IMG/VR virus record: IMGVR_UViG_3300030380_000945
Span: 1-37,414 of that record
Length of the DNA: 37,414 nucleotides
Direction: 5' to 3' (one strand)
Source of the DNA: a virus
Made by a program: the position numbers and the translations under genes. Of the stretch, positions 287-37,054 are shown one piece after another (position 1 is the first letter of the stretch; each line of letters starts with the position of its first letter). The notes under the pieces were generated by a model. It saw only the letters and a program-made list of their open reading frames with translations. It was not told the origin of the DNA and ran no database searches.

Positions 287-356
287 TCTTTTATCTCCCT
301 CATCATATTTAAATGTTGCTTTTTTTACATATAAGAGATTATAATCATGTCGTCAA
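287..356. promoter_or_regulatory. Divergent promoter region between repressor candidate and xis/int
   Basis: On the minus strand, TTGACG (356-351), a 17-bp spacer and TATATG (333-328) would make a promoter for the HTH regulator at 53-286. On the plus strand, TTGCTT (316-321), an 18-bp spacer and TATAAT (340-345) make a second candidate facing xis/int. Its -10 box abuts the xis ATG at 347, so a transcript from it would be almost leaderless. The two promoters overlap, so one regulator could control both. I see no clear palindromic operator here, and none of the AGACA/TGTCT elements found elsewhere in the window. Confidence 0.4.
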
Positions 357-640
357 GTTTTTATACAGTTAGAAATGTAGCCTCCAAATTAAACCTAGCA
401 ATACCTACGGTTTACTTGTGGATTCGAGAGGGGAAATTCGATGGTTGCGTTTACCGCTTTAATAAATCTTGGCGATTTAAGACTGACAAACTTAACCAAT
501 GGATAAAGAGAGGAGAACAAGAATGGGAAGTTTCTACCGAAACGGACAATGGTTTGCTGACTTTACAATCAAGGGTAAAAGATACAGACCAAGAATTAAT
601 GCAAGTTCTAAACGGCAAGCTGATAAGCAGTCAGTTCTAG
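347..640 (+). CDS. Excisionase-like winged HTH DNA-binding protein
   Basis: This 97-residue protein has an N-terminal MerR/excisionase-type HTH at residues 6-55 (YTVRNVASKLNL, then TVYLWIREGKF, then a wing and KLNQWIKR). That pattern is typical of the HTH_17 excisionase family, which bends attP/attL DNA and steers tyrosine integrases toward excision. It lies directly before the integrase and overlaps it in another frame by 118 nt (523-640). Residues after about 58 are therefore encoded inside the integrase start region and look low in information. The HTH part is well supported. The C-terminal tail may be a by-product of the overlap. A controlling role for integrase direction is inferred from family and position. 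Confidence 0.7.
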   Translation: MSSSFYTVRNVASKLNLAIPTVYLWIREGKFDGCVYRFNKSWRFKTDKLNQWIKRGEQEWEVSTETDNGLLTLQSRVKDTDQELMQVLNGKLISSQF

Positions 641-1647
641 CACAACGACAAAAGATAGCTGAACTCGCTACTACACAGTCTGACATTCCTTTTTCTGAGG
701 CAATGTTAAAGTTCCTAAATAATTACTGTGGATTAAAGTATACCCCTAATGGTGAACTTGTATTTCAGAGAAGAGCCATCAAAGAAAGTTCCGCTAAAAG
801 ATATCTTCAAAGTATTAAGATGGTAACCCCATACTTTCAAGGTAGGATGCTGAAAGACATAACCAGACAGGACATTGCAGCTTATGTAGAATGTCGAAGA
901 GAAGGTACTAAAGATATCAAACCATGTAATGATCCCACTATCATAAGAGATCTGAGTATGCTTGGTAAAATGTACGAATATATAATAAAGAATAGTACAT
1001 GGGATGGGCATAACATAGTCAGATCTTTTGATAAAAAGTCACTACAAGAAAGTAAAGATAGGATAAGAAGTCTTGATGATTATGAGAAGAAATGTTTACT
1101 AGATACTGCAAAGAATAGTAAGAACCCAGATCTGTATTATCAAATTAAAATTGCTTTACTTACAGGTATGAGATGGAACGAGCAGTTCTCTTTATTACGA
1201 ACAGACTTTGAACGTACTAACTACGGACCTCAATTTGTTTTAAGAGATACTGTAACAAAGAATGGTAAGGTTAGGGTAGTGCCTTTATGTGATGAAGCAC
1301 TAGAAATAGTAGAGATATTATTAAAAAAACCTGCCAGCTTTAGTGGTCATCTATTTTATAACCCAGACACAGGACATAGGGTAAACTCTAATCGCTCGTC
1401 TTGGGAAACATGTCTGAAAAATAGTAACATTACAGACTTTAGTTGGCATGATTTAAGACACACTTATGCCACAGATGAGATACGAAAAGGTATGCCTATT
1501 TATACTTTATCTAAGTTGTTGGGACACTCAAATGTAACCATCACAGAGAAGTATGCTCATCTATTTACAGAGGATTTACACGAGGCAAAAAGAAAAGTTG
1601 CCACAAAAGTCGCCACACACAGTGGTGTTTTTAGTGTAAGTAATTGA
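523..1647 (+). CDS. int: Tyrosine recombinase / phage integrase
   Basis: This is a site-specific tyrosine recombinase for integration into and excision from the host chromosome. The start at 523 is preferred over the ATG at 499 because AGGAG (511-515) stands 7 nt before it; this gives 374 residues. An N-terminal arm-binding region (about 1-50) and a SAM-like core-binding region (about 55-165) precede the catalytic domain. The catalytic set is complete: Arg217 in LTGMRWNE, Lys246 in the beta-hairpin VTKNGK, His309 and Arg312 in HDLRH, His335 in LGHSNVT, and the nucleophile Tyr344 in EKYAHL. The C-terminus contains a doubled KVAT-KVAT whose codons form two tandem 12-bp repeats. The gene ends 28 bp from the attP core, as expected for an int-attP pair. 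Confidence 0.95.
   Translation: MGSFYRNGQWFADFTIKGKRYRPRINASSKRQADKQSVLAQRQKIAELATTQSDIPFSEAMLKFLNNYCGLKYTPNGELVFQRRAIKESSAKRYLQSIKMVTPYFQGRMLKDITRQDIAAYVECRREGTKDIKPCNDPTIIRDLSMLGKMYEYIIKNSTWDGHNIVRSFDKKSLQESKDRIRSLDDYEKKCLLDTAKNSKNPDLYYQIKIALLTGMRWNEQFSLLRTDFERTNYGPQFVLRDTVTKNGKVRVVPLCDEALEIVEILLKKPASFSGHLFYNPDTGHRVNSNRSSWETCLKNSNITDFSWHDLRHTYATDEIRKGMPIYTLSKLLGHSNVTITEKYAHLFTEDLHEAKRKVATKVATHSGVFSVSN
1594..1617 (+). repeat. Tandem 12-bp repeats in int 3' end, candidate left arm-type integrase sites
   Basis: AAAGTTGCCACA (1594-1605) is followed directly by AAAGTCGCCACA (1606-1617), 11 of 12 identical. They encode the repeated KVAT near the integrase C-terminus. Their consensus matches 8-9 of 12 positions of the perfect tandem repeat on the other side of attP (1832-1855), in the same orientation and with the same 12-bp period. 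Paired direct repeats flanking the core are the normal layout of arm-type sites for tyrosine integrases. The role is inferred from this symmetry. Confidence 0.55.
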
Positions 1648-1675
1648 TATGTATGGGTTTTCTTATATGTATCGG

Positions 1676-1717
1676 TGGATTTTAAGTCCAGTGCGTCTAC
1701 CATTCCGCCACGCTCGC
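1676..1717 (-). other. attP: attP core: 5' half of a tRNA-Leu(UAA) gene
   Basis: Read on the minus strand, this is a tRNA-Leu from its first base through the anticodon arm: acceptor 5' strand GCGAGCG, D arm GCGGAATGGTAGACGC, then anticodon stem-loop with loop CTTAAAA (anticodon TAA). The match stops within the 3' side of the anticodon stem (TCCA, then C where G is needed). No variable arm, T arm (GGTTCGAATCC) or 3' acceptor follows, so this is not a complete tRNA. It lies 28 bp after the integrase stop and between arm-like repeats. It is therefore read as the phage attachment core shared with the host tRNA gene; crossover probably falls in the anticodon arm. Confidence 0.85.
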
Positions 1718-1733
1718 AAAACCATATATCTGT

Positions 1734-1762
1734 TGTGTAGCCTAGGTTTTAGAGGATGGCAA
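1734..1762 (-). promoter_or_regulatory. Candidate sigma70-type promoter driving the reconstituted tRNA-Leu
   Basis: On the minus strand, TTGCCA (1762-1757), exactly 17 bp of spacer and TACACA (1739-1734) stand 16 bp before the first base of the tRNA half at 1717. After integration the host would keep the 3' part of the tRNA, so the phage must supply a promoter as well as the 5' half. The boxes are weak matches, so this is plausible but not secure. Confidence 0.4.
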
Positions 1763-1798
1763 GTTATTTCTCAATTATTTTTTTGGGCAATAATTTTA

Positions 1799-1829
1799 TA
1801 TATTTTATATATATTATATATTTTATATA
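1799..1829. repeat. AT-only direct repeat inside attP, possible bending site
   Basis: TATATTTTATATA occurs at 1799-1811 and again at 1817-1829 in a stretch made only of A and T. It lies between the attP core and the right arm-type repeats, where an IHF/HU-bendable segment is expected in intasomes. No exact IHF consensus is claimed. Confidence 0.4.
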
Positions 1830-1831
1830 CC

Positions 1832-1855
1832 AATCTTGACACAAATCTTGACACA
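1832..1855 (+). repeat. Perfect tandem 12-bp repeats, candidate right arm-type integrase sites
   Basis: AATCTTGACACA occurs at 1832-1843 and identically at 1844-1855. The unit resembles the repeats in the int 3' end (shared TTG-C-CACA pattern) and has the same orientation and period. Each copy also contains a TTGACA, so the repeat may double as a -35 region for the small gene at 1897: TTTATA at 1872-1877 is 18 bp from the second TTGACA. Confidence 0.55.
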
Positions 1856-23215: not shown

Positions 23216-24607
23216 CTATGATTTTGTACTTGCTACGGCTGCTTTGAAACTATTGCTAAATGGGTTTTCTATACCTGCATTCAGTGCACCACCACGATAT
23301 GCGGCTTGAGATCCAAGATTAAGATTTGTAAGTTGTGCTTTCTGGTAATCCTGTAATGCAATCTGTGAATCAAATGGGATCTTTGCTTTTAGTTCAGCAA
23401 ACTTTGCATCAAGTGAGGCTTTACCCTCTGTGAATACAGTACTGTCTAACATACCTCTCTTAGACATAGTGGCTACGAAATCAGAAGTTGCTTTTGTGTA
23501 AGCATCATCTAATTCTTTAGTTCTTCTGTCGGAGAAACTAGACATATAGTTTTGACCGAAGTCACTATTTGGATCTGTTTGTGCTCTTACCCTAGCCATC
23601 TCTGCTGCATATTGTTTTGCTGCTTCTTCTTTTGGATCATCAGCAAACGCAGTTACAAGAGCAGATCCAACGGCTACTGCCTGTAATGGATCTTTCATTG
23701 CTTTATCAACAATATTATCCATCACTCTTTCAAAACTAAAATCTTTAAATGTAAAGCTACCATCGTTATTACTATCAGGGACAGTGTTTGGGTAAAAACC
23801 TGGGGCAGAAGTTCCATAAGGTGAATAGATATCTTGACCACCTGCATTTACATTTTGAAAACTAGCAAAGTTAGAACCTTTTCCACCATCATTACTAAAA
23901 CCAAAACCACCAGATCTATTGGTGTCTGTTAGTACATTAAAATTATCAGATCTCTGACCACCACCAGTTGGCAAATTGTTACTAGCTAAAGACATCTGTT
24001 GGTCTACATTCATATTTGTATTAGGGACTGACATCATACCCGCAGTATTAAGGTATTGATTATTGGCTGCATTATTAACAACACGATTATTTGCAGCATA
24101 TAAACCACCATCAACACTTAATTGTTTTGAGGGTTGTTGAGAAGACACATTTCCAGTAGGTATAAAAAGTCCTCCTGTTTCTTCATCAAATGCTGCTTTA
24201 CCACCATCACTAAATAATGGTACTTTTGATTTTGAAACATTAGCAGGTAAAGCATTGCCTTTACCGAATGTATTTGCATAAGTTGTATTTAATGTATTTC
24301 GATTTGCTGGTGACATACTAGCTTGTTTGTTACCCATCAACGTATCAAAAGTGTTTCCAAATGTTCCTACTTTCCCTAAACCTTGAGCAAGACCATAACC
24401 ACCTAGACCAGCTTGCAGGGCACCACTTGTACCACCTGCTCTAAGTCCAGAAGCCAGATTGAGACCTCCTAATGTAGACTTGATCGTGTCTCCATATTTC
24501 ATACCATCAAAAGCTCCGAAGCCACCTAGTGTAGATCCTAAAGCTAGACCTGCTCTGACTTCATCTTTGTTTAGAAAATTTCCAATTTTTTTAAATATGC
24601 TTGCCAT
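23216..24607 (-). CDS. Probable internal virion protein (T7 gp14-like region)
   Basis: This 463-residue protein starts MASIFKKIGNFLNKDEVRAG with a Gly-rich N-terminus (TLGGFGAFDG, LGGLNLASGLRAGG). It has an Asn/Gly-rich middle, then a helical C-terminal half: EEAAKQYAAEMARVRAQTDP, FSDRRTKELDDAYTKATSDF, and FAELKAKIPFDSQIALQDY. The helical part resembles the ejectosome proteins of podoviruses that line the DNA channel; exact homology to T7 gp14 is not certain. The Gly-rich start could insert in a membrane. AGGAAG precedes the ATG. Confidence 0.65.
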   Translation of the reverse strand: MASIFKKIGNFLNKDEVRAGLALGSTLGGFGAFDGMKYGDTIKSTLGGLNLASGLRAGGTSGALQAGLGGYGLAQGLGKVGTFGNTFDTLMGNKQASMSPANRNTLNTTYANTFGKGNALPANVSKSKVPLFSDGGKAAFDEETGGLFIPTGNVSSQQPSKQLSVDGGLYAANNRVVNNAANNQYLNTAGMMSVPNTNMNVDQQMSLASNNLPTGGGQRSDNFNVLTDTNRSGGFGFSNDGGKGSNFASFQNVNAGGQDIYSPYGTSAPGFYPNTVPDSNNDGSFTFKDFSFERVMDNIVDKAMKDPLQAVAVGSALVTAFADDPKEEAAKQYAAEMARVRAQTDPNSDFGQNYMSSFSDRRTKELDDAYTKATSDFVATMSKRGMLDSTVFTEGKASLDAKFAELKAKIPFDSQIALQDYQKAQLTNLNLGSQAAYRGGALNAGIENPFSNSFKAAVASTKS

Positions 24608-24609
24608 AA

Positions 24610-26430
24610 TTATCTTCCTGTTGGTGCTTGTTTAAATTGTCCTGATCTTGCGGAACCAGTAAAACTTCCGATACCAGAGATATCGATATCGTCACTGTAG
24701 TTTAAAAATGGTGAAGAACTTGATACTCCATAGATATCTTCACCTGCCTTACGTTTTCTACGTTTTATTAAGTCAGTCGGTGCTGTGTCTGGTAACCTTA
24801 TTTCCTGAGTTGGTTTCTCTGTAACAGGTGCCTTACTTACATTAACTTGAGATTGAGTGTTGTTGTCATCAGACGACATATCAGTTGGTGACACTTGAGA
24901 CATGTAGCCTTGATTTGCTCCAAGACCTAGCATTGCATCTACATCTTTACCCATTGCCTGTGCAGCAAAATTAATTGGTGTTGTAATTAACGCAGCAGTT
25001 GGACTTACCAAACCTAACATGTTGCTCACGGTGGAGAATGTACCTTTTCTAGATGAATCAATAAGACCACCTGCAACTCTTGCTGCTTGAAAAGCAGGTG
25101 CTATAGCTGTAGGCATAAATGGTGCAAAGACTCCTGCGAGTTGTGAGCCAAAGAAACCTTGGTTCTGACCACTGAAACGACCTGTAACAGTGCCGTCTTT
25201 ATTAAAATTATAATCCGCTAAAGTAACACCGTATGTTGGAGCTTGACCCCCTAATTTAGTGCTGAAGTCAGAGTAGGGTGCAAACGTATCTTTTGACATA
25301 GCCATTGTTGGTGTCACACCTGCCATATTCGGTGTGTTCATAAAGGCACCAAAATTTAAACCAAAATCTCTTCCATAACCTTTAGCTATTTCTGCTACAT
25401 CTAAACCTTTCTTGTCACTCTCTACAACAGAGCCACCAAAAAGACCACCAACTAACCCAGCAGATTCTGCATCTCTATCAAAACCTGTGTTGTCTATATC
25501 TGTTAATGTACTTACATCTTGACCACGACCACCGAACGGATCTAACTCAGGTGGACCAAAACCCATTGGACCATAACTCATACCTGCATCATTCATCTTA
25601 CTGGCATTGTCATAACCTTGAACACCAGTAGCATCTGATCTTGCAGACATTAAACCACTAAAGTCATCATCTCTTAATGCATTAGTAACAGAGCTAAAAC
25701 CAGATCCAACTACATTGCCTGTAGTTGATCCAACAATATTTGATATAACATCTGGAGCAGTTGTGGATCTTGTACTATCATAAGTCGGCATACCTGTAGC
25801 GGTATAACCAGATATTGTTTTTCCACCTCTGCTTAAATTTGCAATAGTGCTTGCATTCGATGAACCTGCTATTGAACTAGTGCCTTGAGAACCTGCAAGC
25901 ATATCACCAATCTGGGAAACAGTTGCACCTTGATTAGCCATTTCAACTGCTTGATTTACAGTAGATTGACTTGCACCTTGTAGAGCATCAAAATTAGAAC
26001 CAGCTACACCTGATCCCGCAGAAGATGTATAACCTATAGCTGCATCTGATGCAGTACTACCAGTTTTAGATACTCCGTTTATACCGAAAGTAGTTCCACC
26101 GCCAGTGCTTCCACCACCGCCAGAGCTTCCACCACCGCCAGAGCTTCCGCCAGAATCTCCACCGCCAGAATCTCCACCACCAGAGCCGCCGCCAGAATCT
26201 CCACCGCCAGAGCCGCCACCTTCGCCACCTATATCAGATCCACCGCCACCACCAGAAGAGTCTCCTGGGTTTCCAACTTCACCACCAATATCAGATCCGC
26301 CACCACCTCCACTGCTGTCGCCACCATCGCCACCAAATAAGCCATACTTTAGCTCAAAAGGATCTACATAGTCTGCCACTGTGAAAGTGTGATTATCATT
26401 CCATATTTGTCTGTCGAATATCATTCGCAA
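24610..26430 (-). CDS. Glycine-rich ejection-type virion protein
   Basis: This 606-residue protein has a short N-terminal segment, then Gly/Ser/Asp-rich sequence at about 34-115 with two copies of a DSSGGGGGSDIGGE unit followed by SGGG-type repeats. The rest is polar, Gly/Ser/Thr-rich, with a more hydrophobic patch at about 435-515 (GVFAPFMPTAIAPAFQAARV, then TTPINFAAQAMG). It starts inside the acyltransferase gene (35-nt overlap), so the two are probably co-translated. No strong ribosome binding site is visible at 26430 or 26424. It has no known family. Placement among internal proteins suggests it is ejected. Asp-bearing Gly repeats might bind calcium, but they do not match the RTX nonapeptide exactly. 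Confidence 0.65.
   Translation of the reverse strand: MRMIFDRQIWNDNHTFTVADYVDPFELKYGLFGGDGGDSSGGGGGSDIGGEVGNPGDSSGGGGGSDIGGEGGGSGGGDSGGGSGGGDSGGGDSGGSSGGGGSSGGGGSTGGGTTFGINGVSKTGSTASDAAIGYTSSAGSGVAGSNFDALQGASQSTVNQAVEMANQGATVSQIGDMLAGSQGTSSIAGSSNASTIANLSRGGKTISGYTATGMPTYDSTRSTTAPDVISNIVGSTTGNVVGSGFSSVTNALRDDDFSGLMSARSDATGVQGYDNASKMNDAGMSYGPMGFGPPELDPFGGRGQDVSTLTDIDNTGFDRDAESAGLVGGLFGGSVVESDKKGLDVAEIAKGYGRDFGLNFGAFMNTPNMAGVTPTMAMSKDTFAPYSDFSTKLGGQAPTYGVTLADYNFNKDGTVTGRFSGQNQGFFGSQLAGVFAPFMPTAIAPAFQAARVAGGLIDSSRKGTFSTVSNMLGLVSPTAALITTPINFAAQAMGKDVDAMLGLGANQGYMSQVSPTDMSSDDNNTQSQVNVSKAPVTEKPTQEIRLPDTAPTDLIKRRKRKAGEDIYGVSSSSPFLNYSDDIDISGIGSFTGSARSGQFKQAPTGR
26100..26330 (-). repeat. Low-complexity Gly/Ser-coding repeat
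   Basis: Repeating GGTGGAGG/GGCGGTGG-type triplets encode the Gly/Ser/Asp stretch of the ejection-type protein. Two longer units (near 26225-26260 and 26280-26310) are nearly identical. The stretch is markedly richer in GC than its surroundings and is a probable site for length variation. Confidence 0.6.
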
Positions 26431-26879: not shown

Positions 26880-28402
26880 GTGTCTACTATTAAAGCAAAA
26901 TCTAATATTTTTAATTCTCCTGTTGCTGTGCAAGTGAACTTAACACTAATACTTTTTGATCTATGAGGTATTGGTATATCGATAGGTCTCGTACTATCAT
27001 TACTAATACCTGAAGTTGAAGCAAATCCATCATTCTCAGGGCGAACTGTAGTTTGCTGGAGTTGATTATTCTCACTATCAAATATCGTTACAACAAAGTC
27101 TGCCGTTCCGACAGCACGAATAATCAGACGTTTATAATGTTTATATGTATCAGGTGAACCCTGAGATAAGAGTGGAGTTCTCACACTCATACTGTTGGAC
27201 TGTGTCAGTGATTGACCATCACCATATCCAGACGTGGTTCCCATTTGTAATGCTGATACTCCAGAAGACGTGTCTGGTCTGGCAAAGTAAGATCCACATG
27301 TACTGTTATGAGATGTAGTATTGCTAAAACTTAGATGACCAGAACGACCTGCTGATGGATCATAAGTAAATGTTAGTTTTGTAAAGGATGTGCCTGTAGA
27401 ATTTTGTGGGAAGAAAATATGATACTGCCCAATCTCACCATCCCACACAGCATGAGGTTCAGTAAAACTGCCACTAGTTGGAACCGTATCTACTAAAGAT
27501 TGATATAAGTCTTGTATCTCTCTTGTGAATGTCACGGTCTCAAGTGTCAAACCTGAAGCTGCACGTTTCAGACTGTGCACTCCAAATCTACTACAAAAGA
27601 ATACATCCGTTCCGACATTGACTGCGGTGTTCCTACCAAAGATGCCTATAGGCACTCTAAAGTCTCTAGCTATTTCCCATAAATTTATATTTGTATCGGC
27701 TAAATATACTAAGGTTTCATTCTGACCAAAAACAACTAACTTATCACCTTCTAATACAGCAAGACCTTGAATAGTATCTCTAGAGGTAAATTGATTTTTT
27801 ACATCAATAATACTGCCATCAGTTTGATTTGGTGTAGTGCCACTTGATGTATTAGTTCTCCAATTAACAAAGCTATCTTGTTCACTTACATGTATTTCTG
27901 TATCACGGTTTGGTATACCTGCAACAACTAAACGATTTAAAATATTTACAGCAAATCCACCTTTTGGATAAGAGCCTAAACTAGAAAAATTTGTTGAACC
28001 AAATCCACTGACGGTAGTGAATGCTGAACCATTAAAATGAAATGGATTATGACCAGACATAAACGCAAATTGTTTTTGATCGAAGTTAACAGTTGCTATA
28101 GGTGTGATTGCAGTTGTGCTTGTATTAAATGCAGTGGATTGAGTTGCTGAATTAGATTTAATATCTATATTATTACCGTTAAAAATATATCGAACTAAAT
28201 CTCCAGCACCGTAATGTCTTATATTATAATGCTTTTCAGTATTACCTGATAATTTATTAATACTTGGACCTTTAATTATCTGACCTCTAAAATCTATATA
28301 AGCATCAGATAGTTCTACTAAAAACCTTTCAGACATATTTGAAGGACTTGTGACAGTGTCTAGTCCTAAAAATCTATTATATGAAAAAAGTTTTCGAGCC
28401 AT
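26873..28402 (-). CDS. Tail nozzle / DNA stabilisation protein (P22 gp10-like)
   Basis: This 509-residue, beta-rich protein begins MARKLFSYNRFLGLDTVTSP and repeats blades of a propeller-like pattern: RLVVAGIPNRDTEIHVSEQD, IQGLAVLEGDKLVVFGQNET and FRVPIGIFGRNTAVNVGTDV. VFFCSRFGVHSLKR is typical of podovirus nozzle proteins that close the tail and hold packaged DNA. It follows the adaptor with a TAATG overlap, as in P22-like assemblies. The Asp/Glu and aromatic spacing supports the fold; exact family is by resemblance. Confidence 0.75.
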   Translation of the reverse strand: MARKLFSYNRFLGLDTVTSPSNMSERFLVELSDAYIDFRGQIIKGPSINKLSGNTEKHYNIRHYGAGDLVRYIFNGNNIDIKSNSATQSTAFNTSTTAITPIATVNFDQKQFAFMSGHNPFHFNGSAFTTVSGFGSTNFSSLGSYPKGGFAVNILNRLVVAGIPNRDTEIHVSEQDSFVNWRTNTSSGTTPNQTDGSIIDVKNQFTSRDTIQGLAVLEGDKLVVFGQNETLVYLADTNINLWEIARDFRVPIGIFGRNTAVNVGTDVFFCSRFGVHSLKRAASGLTLETVTFTREIQDLYQSLVDTVPTSGSFTEPHAVWDGEIGQYHIFFPQNSTGTSFTKLTFTYDPSAGRSGHLSFSNTTSHNSTCGSYFARPDTSSGVSALQMGTTSGYGDGQSLTQSNSMSVRTPLLSQGSPDTYKHYKRLIIRAVGTADFVVTIFDSENNQLQQTTVRPENDGFASTSGISNDSTRPIDIPIPHRSKSISVKFTCTATGELKILDFALIVDTK

Positions 28403-36771: not shown

Positions 36772-36917
36772 ACAGGGGGTAGGGTGTCAATTTTTTTATT
36801 TGTAAATTTAAGCGAGGGGCATGGCAAATAGGACTAACTATCCTATGTGTGATAGGCGGTATCGCACAGTCAGTAACAATTACAGCGTGGTTATGATGTG
36901 GCTGTGGCAAGTTTTGT

Positions 36918-36973
36918 GACATTTTTTGTGTCTGAATGTGTCTGCATGTCTGAATGTCTGACATTTTTTGTGT
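36918..36973. repeat. Iteron-like TGTCT array flanked by 14-bp direct repeats
   Basis: TGTCT occurs four times, each followed by G (36929, 36939, 36947 and 36955; spacing 10, 8, 8). GACATTTTTTGTGT is repeated exactly at 36918-36931 and 36960-36973 on both sides. TGTCT is the same pentamer (reverse AGACA) as in the intergenic elements. Close to the terminase genes, it could be an operator, replication iterons or a packaging recognition site. Confidence 0.55.
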
Positions 36974-37054
36974 ATTTTTTAATTTTTCAGCGTCAGCCTG
37001 AAATTTTTTTAATGCTCTGACTTTGGCTAGAACATTAGGTTTATAATGATTAAA

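Follow-up and report, generated by a model that had tools for sequence, protein, structure and literature searches.

The last codons of a marine phage integrase gene very probably double as integrase arm-type sites

Introduction

In phage P2 (NC_001895), the annotated P' arm site of the integrase (24470-24496) lies inside the int gene itself (24462-25475, minus strand). The 3' codons of this gene, GAGAGTGTCCACACAGTGTCCACAGTAGAG (ESVHTVSTVE*), hold tandem 12-bp direct repeats, AGTGTCCACAC and AGTGTCCACAG. A second pair, CGTCCACACATTGACCACATC, follows in the same orientation beyond the core, on whose far side the P arm is annotated. Phage P22 (NC_002371) carries TGTCCCAAATATGTCCCA in the 3' codons of int (SVPNMSH) and ATGTCCCATTTTTGTCCCA beyond the annotated core. 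The array in the P22 int codons reads TCTGTCCCAAATATGTCCCA; the P22 arm sites were read from the sequence here and are unannotated in NC_002371. Published footprints reportedly exist for both P2 and P22. In phage lambda, arm-type sites likewise flank the core and the P' cluster adjoins the 3' end of int, but most of these AGGTCACTAT-type sites are outside the gene, next to its stop codon. The feature "int 4" of the lambda record NC_001416 (27814-27854) lies inside int and does not overlap the AGGTCACTAT site at 27785-27794; its coordinates may be off. HTVC019P and HP1 have no such tandem in the last int codons and were rejected as precedents, which indicates that the layout is not universal. 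The arms of P2-like phages consist of two direct repeats each, and those of Smp131 were sought only in intergenic DNA (PMC3931495).

In this study, we analysed the window, a stretch of 37,414 nucleotides that makes up the virus record IMGVR_UViG_3300030380_000945, together with its relatives in IMG/VR and a broader set of integrases. Two tandem 12-mers in the last codons of int and two more beyond a tRNA-Leu fragment are, as we judge with high confidence from sequence comparison, arm-type sites for the lambda-type tyrosine integrase that this phage encodes. The last codons of the int gene of this marine phage would thus very probably double as landing pads of the integrase for insertion into a host tRNA gene.

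The integrase gene and the attP region

The minus strand of the 37.4-kb virus record carries portal, terminase, tail fibre, and amidase genes, and int is located on the plus strand. The features of the region are listed in Table 1.

Table 1. Features of the int-attP region of the window
Feature	Positions	Strand	Evidence
Candidate recombination directionality factor (RDF), excisionase-like HTH protein	347-640	+	Pfam HTH_17 E 9.7e-9; PHROG_66 excisionase and transcriptional regulator E 1.1e-6
int, tyrosine integrase, 382 aa	499-1647	+	Pfam PF00589 E 2.3e-23; PHROG_1 integrase E 5.9e-56
Putative int-side arm-type unit 1, AAAGTTGCCACA, codons KVAT	1594-1605	+	sequence, TRF; kept in relatives
Putative int-side arm-type unit 2, AAAGTCGCCACA, codons KVAT	1606-1617	+	sequence, TRF, relatives
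Putative attP core, 5' half of tRNA-Leu (anticodon loop read as UAA)	1678-1721	-	blastn against annotated tRNA-Leu genes, up to 91%
AT-rich tract, about 4 copies of ATTTTATAT, between core and far arm	1793-1829		TRF; conserved in alignment
Putative far-side arm-type unit 1, AATCTTGACACA	1832-1843	+	sequence, TRF, relatives
Putative far-side arm-type unit 2, AATCTTGACACA	1844-1855	+	sequence, TRF, relatives

The int product has a tyrosine recombinase catalytic domain (PF00589), and the profile search also matched it to HP1 integrase and XerD. It is composed of an N-terminal beta-beta-beta-alpha domain resembling arm-binding domains (aa 11-58), a core-binding domain, the catalytic domain, and a C-tail predicted to be disordered (aa 362-382). 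In the AlphaFold2 model (pLDDT 79), the arm-binding-domain-like part is formed by three to four strands (aa 11-29) followed by a helix (aa 38-58); Pfam assigned no arm domain to the N-terminus at E 0.1. Full-length lambda Int (1z1b) was among the top Foldseek matches of the model (375 columns, E 5.9e-10), and Tn1549 Int was another fold match. From residue 362 onward, the pLDDT was below 50. Because the tail is predicted to be disordered, its residues may be free to follow a sequence imposed by a DNA site.

An earlier note on this DNA had placed two 12-bp units encoding KVAT-KVAT at the end of int and two perfect units on the far side of the core, and every coordinate proved exact. The 3' end of int reads ...AKRKVATKVATHSGVFSVSN, in which codons 366-373 (AAA GTT GCC ACA and AAA GTC GCC ACA) encode KVAT KVAT. 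Both arrays were detected by TRF, at 1593-1617 (92%) and 1832-1856 (100%). The identity between int-side and far-side units was 9/12 and 8/12, with common orientation and period, which bears out the claim that the two pairs agree in 8-9 of 12 bases. When the codons of the int end were shuffled, an int-side tandem of at least 11/12 arose by chance in 0.1% of trials; dinucleotide shuffling of the far side gave a 12/12 tandem in 0.15%. The joint motif AANNTNGMCACA, which was derived from the same four units that were later counted as matches, had six exact matches in the window compared with 1.2 expected, and four of the six were the candidate arm-type units. Both KVAT alanines are encoded by GCC, which makes up 9.7% of the Ala codons in the large ORFs of the window. 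A non-coding cluster of TGTGTCTGAATGTGTCTGCATGTCTGAATGTCTGACA repeats at 36900-36975 adjoins an exact match to the arm motif on the minus strand (36903-36914).

With two tandem units on each side of the tRNA-Leu fragment, the region has the form expected of a two-sided attP. We infer the binding, its stoichiometry, and the crossover point from this form. The N-terminal domain of Int would bind the four units as the enzyme acts at the tRNA core, the pair in the int codons would be the P'-type arm (int side), and the pair beyond the tRNA-Leu core would be the P-type arm. Crossover presumably takes place at the anticodon stem-loop of the core, and the AT-rich tract is presumed to be flexible or bent DNA. 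After integration, the int-side pair would remain with int at one end of the prophage, and the far pair would mark the other end. In the search for a host attB, no match to the core with up to 2 mismatches was found in 398 sampled genomes of one phylum, and a scan of genome contigs returned distant integrases only.

The tandem in the last int codons, matched in direct orientation on the far side of the core, reproduces the layout of P2 and P22. Since these two phages have the same layout, the arrangement in the window is of a known kind and is not categorically new. Compared with P2, the motif is different, and NC_001895 shows no tRNA fragment at the P2 core. P2 uses an IHF site and Cox, whereas the window has an AT tract at the IHF position and only a candidate RDF. 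Compared with P22, the period is 12 instead of 11. As the main alternative, all or some of the repeats could be binding sites of the excisionase-like HTH protein or of another regulator rather than of Int. The gene of the HTH protein, whose role as an RDF we infer, overlaps the start of int. RDF sites occur in attP regions, such as the P2 Cox site between the core and the P' arm, and excisionase sites in attP can be tandem repeats too. However, the tandems of the window flank the core on both sides like the Int arm sites of P2, from which the Cox site of that phage is distinct, and we consider a regulator site unlikely. The reading of the repeats as arm-type sites of Int, which the earlier note had put forward, is well supported at the sequence level. 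The same layout is found again in relatives and unrelated integrase families, and the annotated site of P2 appears in the same place.

Close relatives

The layout was conserved in nine IMG/VR loci at 88-100% protein identity and in L011 at 59%. The int side and far side read GTTGCCACCAAAAGTGCCACA and TGGACACCAAAACGGACACC in L003, GTTGCCACCAAAGTCGCCACA and AGTGCCACGGAAGTTGCCACGG in L010, and GTTGCCACAAATCTTGACACA and GTTGACACAAATCTTGACACA in L007, respectively. The second int unit of L007 is AATCTTGACACA, identical (12/12) to its own far unit, and three residues are changed there (KVAT to NLDT). In L011, a tRNA-Ser fragment replaces the tRNA-Leu core, GTAGACACAAAAGCAGACACA lies in int, and the far-side GTAGACACAAAAGTA lies at the contig end. 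The two-sided consensus in the close relatives was AA..T.GMCAC, and copies within one array resembled each other.

It had been proposed that relatives be aligned to find out whether the two sides covary. The consensus was kept on both sides, but strict base-by-base covariation was not found among the closest relatives. In these, the far pair varied between GACAC and GCCAC, the int pair was mostly constant (GCCAC), and position M (A or C) was unlinked between the sides. Of 19 foreign far sides, 5 equalled or exceeded the two-sided score of the window, 11; several of these came from close relatives. The suggestion that KVAT-like repeats occur in other integrases did not hold. A degenerate pattern encoding KVATKVAT matched 32 IMG/VR stretches, of which three were integrases, all of this family, and KVAT was rejected as a general integrase motif because the pattern found no integrase outside the family in IMG/VR.

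A short hypervariable segment (GTTGTGTA[GC]CCTAGGTTT nnGAGnnt GGCAAGTTATTTCT) lies within conserved flanks at 1738-1762 of the window. L003, L005, and L006 are near-identical around attP and differ mainly in this segment. Its flanks are kept in L011 despite the other tRNA core.

Distant relatives

In relatives at 44-46% identity, the arm DNA motif is read in a different codon phase. L048 pairs GTATGACACAGGGACTGACACAC (GMTQGLTH) in int with a far-side TGTGACACACAATGTGACACAG, and L051 pairs GGACTGACACAAGGACTGACACAC with ACGGACACACAAACGGACACAG. In L059, the int side reads GGTGTCACAT-TAG-GTGTCACAC, with the stop codon within the spacer and the second copy past the stop, and the other side reads GGTGTCCCAAAAGGTGTCCCACA. 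The peptide encoded over the persisting motif is KVATKVAT, KVATNLDT, KVDTKADT, or GMTQGLTH, or the repeat straddles the stop codon. The shift in codon phase and the stop-straddling copies would not be predicted by an explanation at the peptide level.

Two-sided direct tandems flank the tRNA cores here and in relatives with different cores. In two lineages, L012/L013 and L057/L058, int directly abuts the next gene, and the entire attP interval is missing: the core and far pair are absent together with the int repeats. This joint loss indicates that the missing unit spans from the inside of int to the far pair.

L051 and L053 have near-identical integrases and arms but different cores. By eye, the core of L051 is a tRNA-Trp-like 3' half, and that of L053 is a tRNA-Ser 5' half on the opposite strand. 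Their common part is an anticodon stem-loop, GGTCT nnn AAACC, which suggests that the integrase recognises the stem-loop and can switch tRNA. In the interval between the core and the far arm, L048 and L051 have an extra inverted copy of the arm motif (GTGTGTCACACAG; TGTGTCCGTC), with ATTTCGCA repeats between this copy and the direct pair.

Survey of integrase families

Integrases were collected with two unselected DNA patterns that target the HDLRHT motif and supplemented by the earlier loci. This set of 238 integrases fell into 148 protein clusters, 117 of which were usable. Tandems with a period of 11 or 12 and a score of at least 8 were counted in the last 54 nt of int plus 12. The results showed that such tandems were present in 11.1% of the terminal int windows and in 1.07% of the internal windows of the same genes (117 clusters; Fisher p 1.8e-9). 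The 66 nt downstream of the terminal window were equally rich in tandems (14.8%, any period), which indicates that the array is often at or just past the int stop. In L059, L119, and L014, the copies straddle or follow the stop codon. Periods 11 and 12 were about equally common (6 and 7), which points to one helical turn and not to a codon-based repeat.

Thirteen clusters were chosen by their int side only. Their best downstream matches averaged 12.4 in direct and 8.5 in inverted orientation (p 0.012), a difference absent from the 79 clusters without tandems. Clear two-sided examples in which a tRNA fragment separates the arms were L164 (AAAGCGGGAACAAAAGCGGGAACA on both sides), L265, L154, L017, L018, L022, and L296; L041 and L161 had inverted copies instead of direct ones. 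The two sides covaried across families: the motif differed from family to family, and the two sides usually agreed. A permutation over 20 types gave a matching-side sum of 309 compared with 180 +/- 11, a result that is illustrative only and biased upward because some loci were picked for their two-sided matches.

The C-terminal repeat of int might be selected for its peptide, a repeated tail, in which case it would resemble the far side only by coincidence. In agreement with this, the 12-bp unit of KVAT-KVAT repeats in frame, since 12 is divisible by 3. However, the peptide and its codon phase vary in relatives, period 11 is as common as 12 elsewhere, copies lie across or beyond the stop in the three loci named above, and the tail is predicted to be disordered. 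Selection on the peptide has already been largely refuted, and we regard it as very improbable. That the two-sided similarity is a product of chance or a by-product of recombination with no present function deserves hardly any weight: each single motif is short, and the homogenised copies within an array suggest local duplication or conversion, but the tandems occupy the same place in independent integrase families in tenfold excess and direct orientation, and they match the mapped P2 site.

Significance of arm-type sites within int

The earlier note had supposed that the arrangement may be general. This is right for the DNA layout, given the survey, P2, and P22, and not for KVAT; the arrangement itself is not new. 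What is added here is breadth, evidence that DNA is kept over peptide, and a simple rule for finding arms. On balance, we favour the view that one attP arm is stored in the last codons of many phage tyrosine integrase genes, whose C-terminal peptide would be shaped by selection for DNA binding. No description of arm-type sites within int as a general rule was found in the literature searched, which included few subscription journals, and this absence counts only weakly as a sign of novelty.

In practice, attP arms can be sought as tandems of 11-12 bp in the last 60 nt of int with a matching unit 130-240 nt downstream, and searches confined to intergenic DNA would miss one arm. Recoding or trimming the 3' end of an integrase gene can break attP, which is relevant to integration vectors. 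If the rule is true, it would explain why many phage integrases end in odd, repeated C-terminal tails, and attP would be tied to int, the two travelling together as one module.
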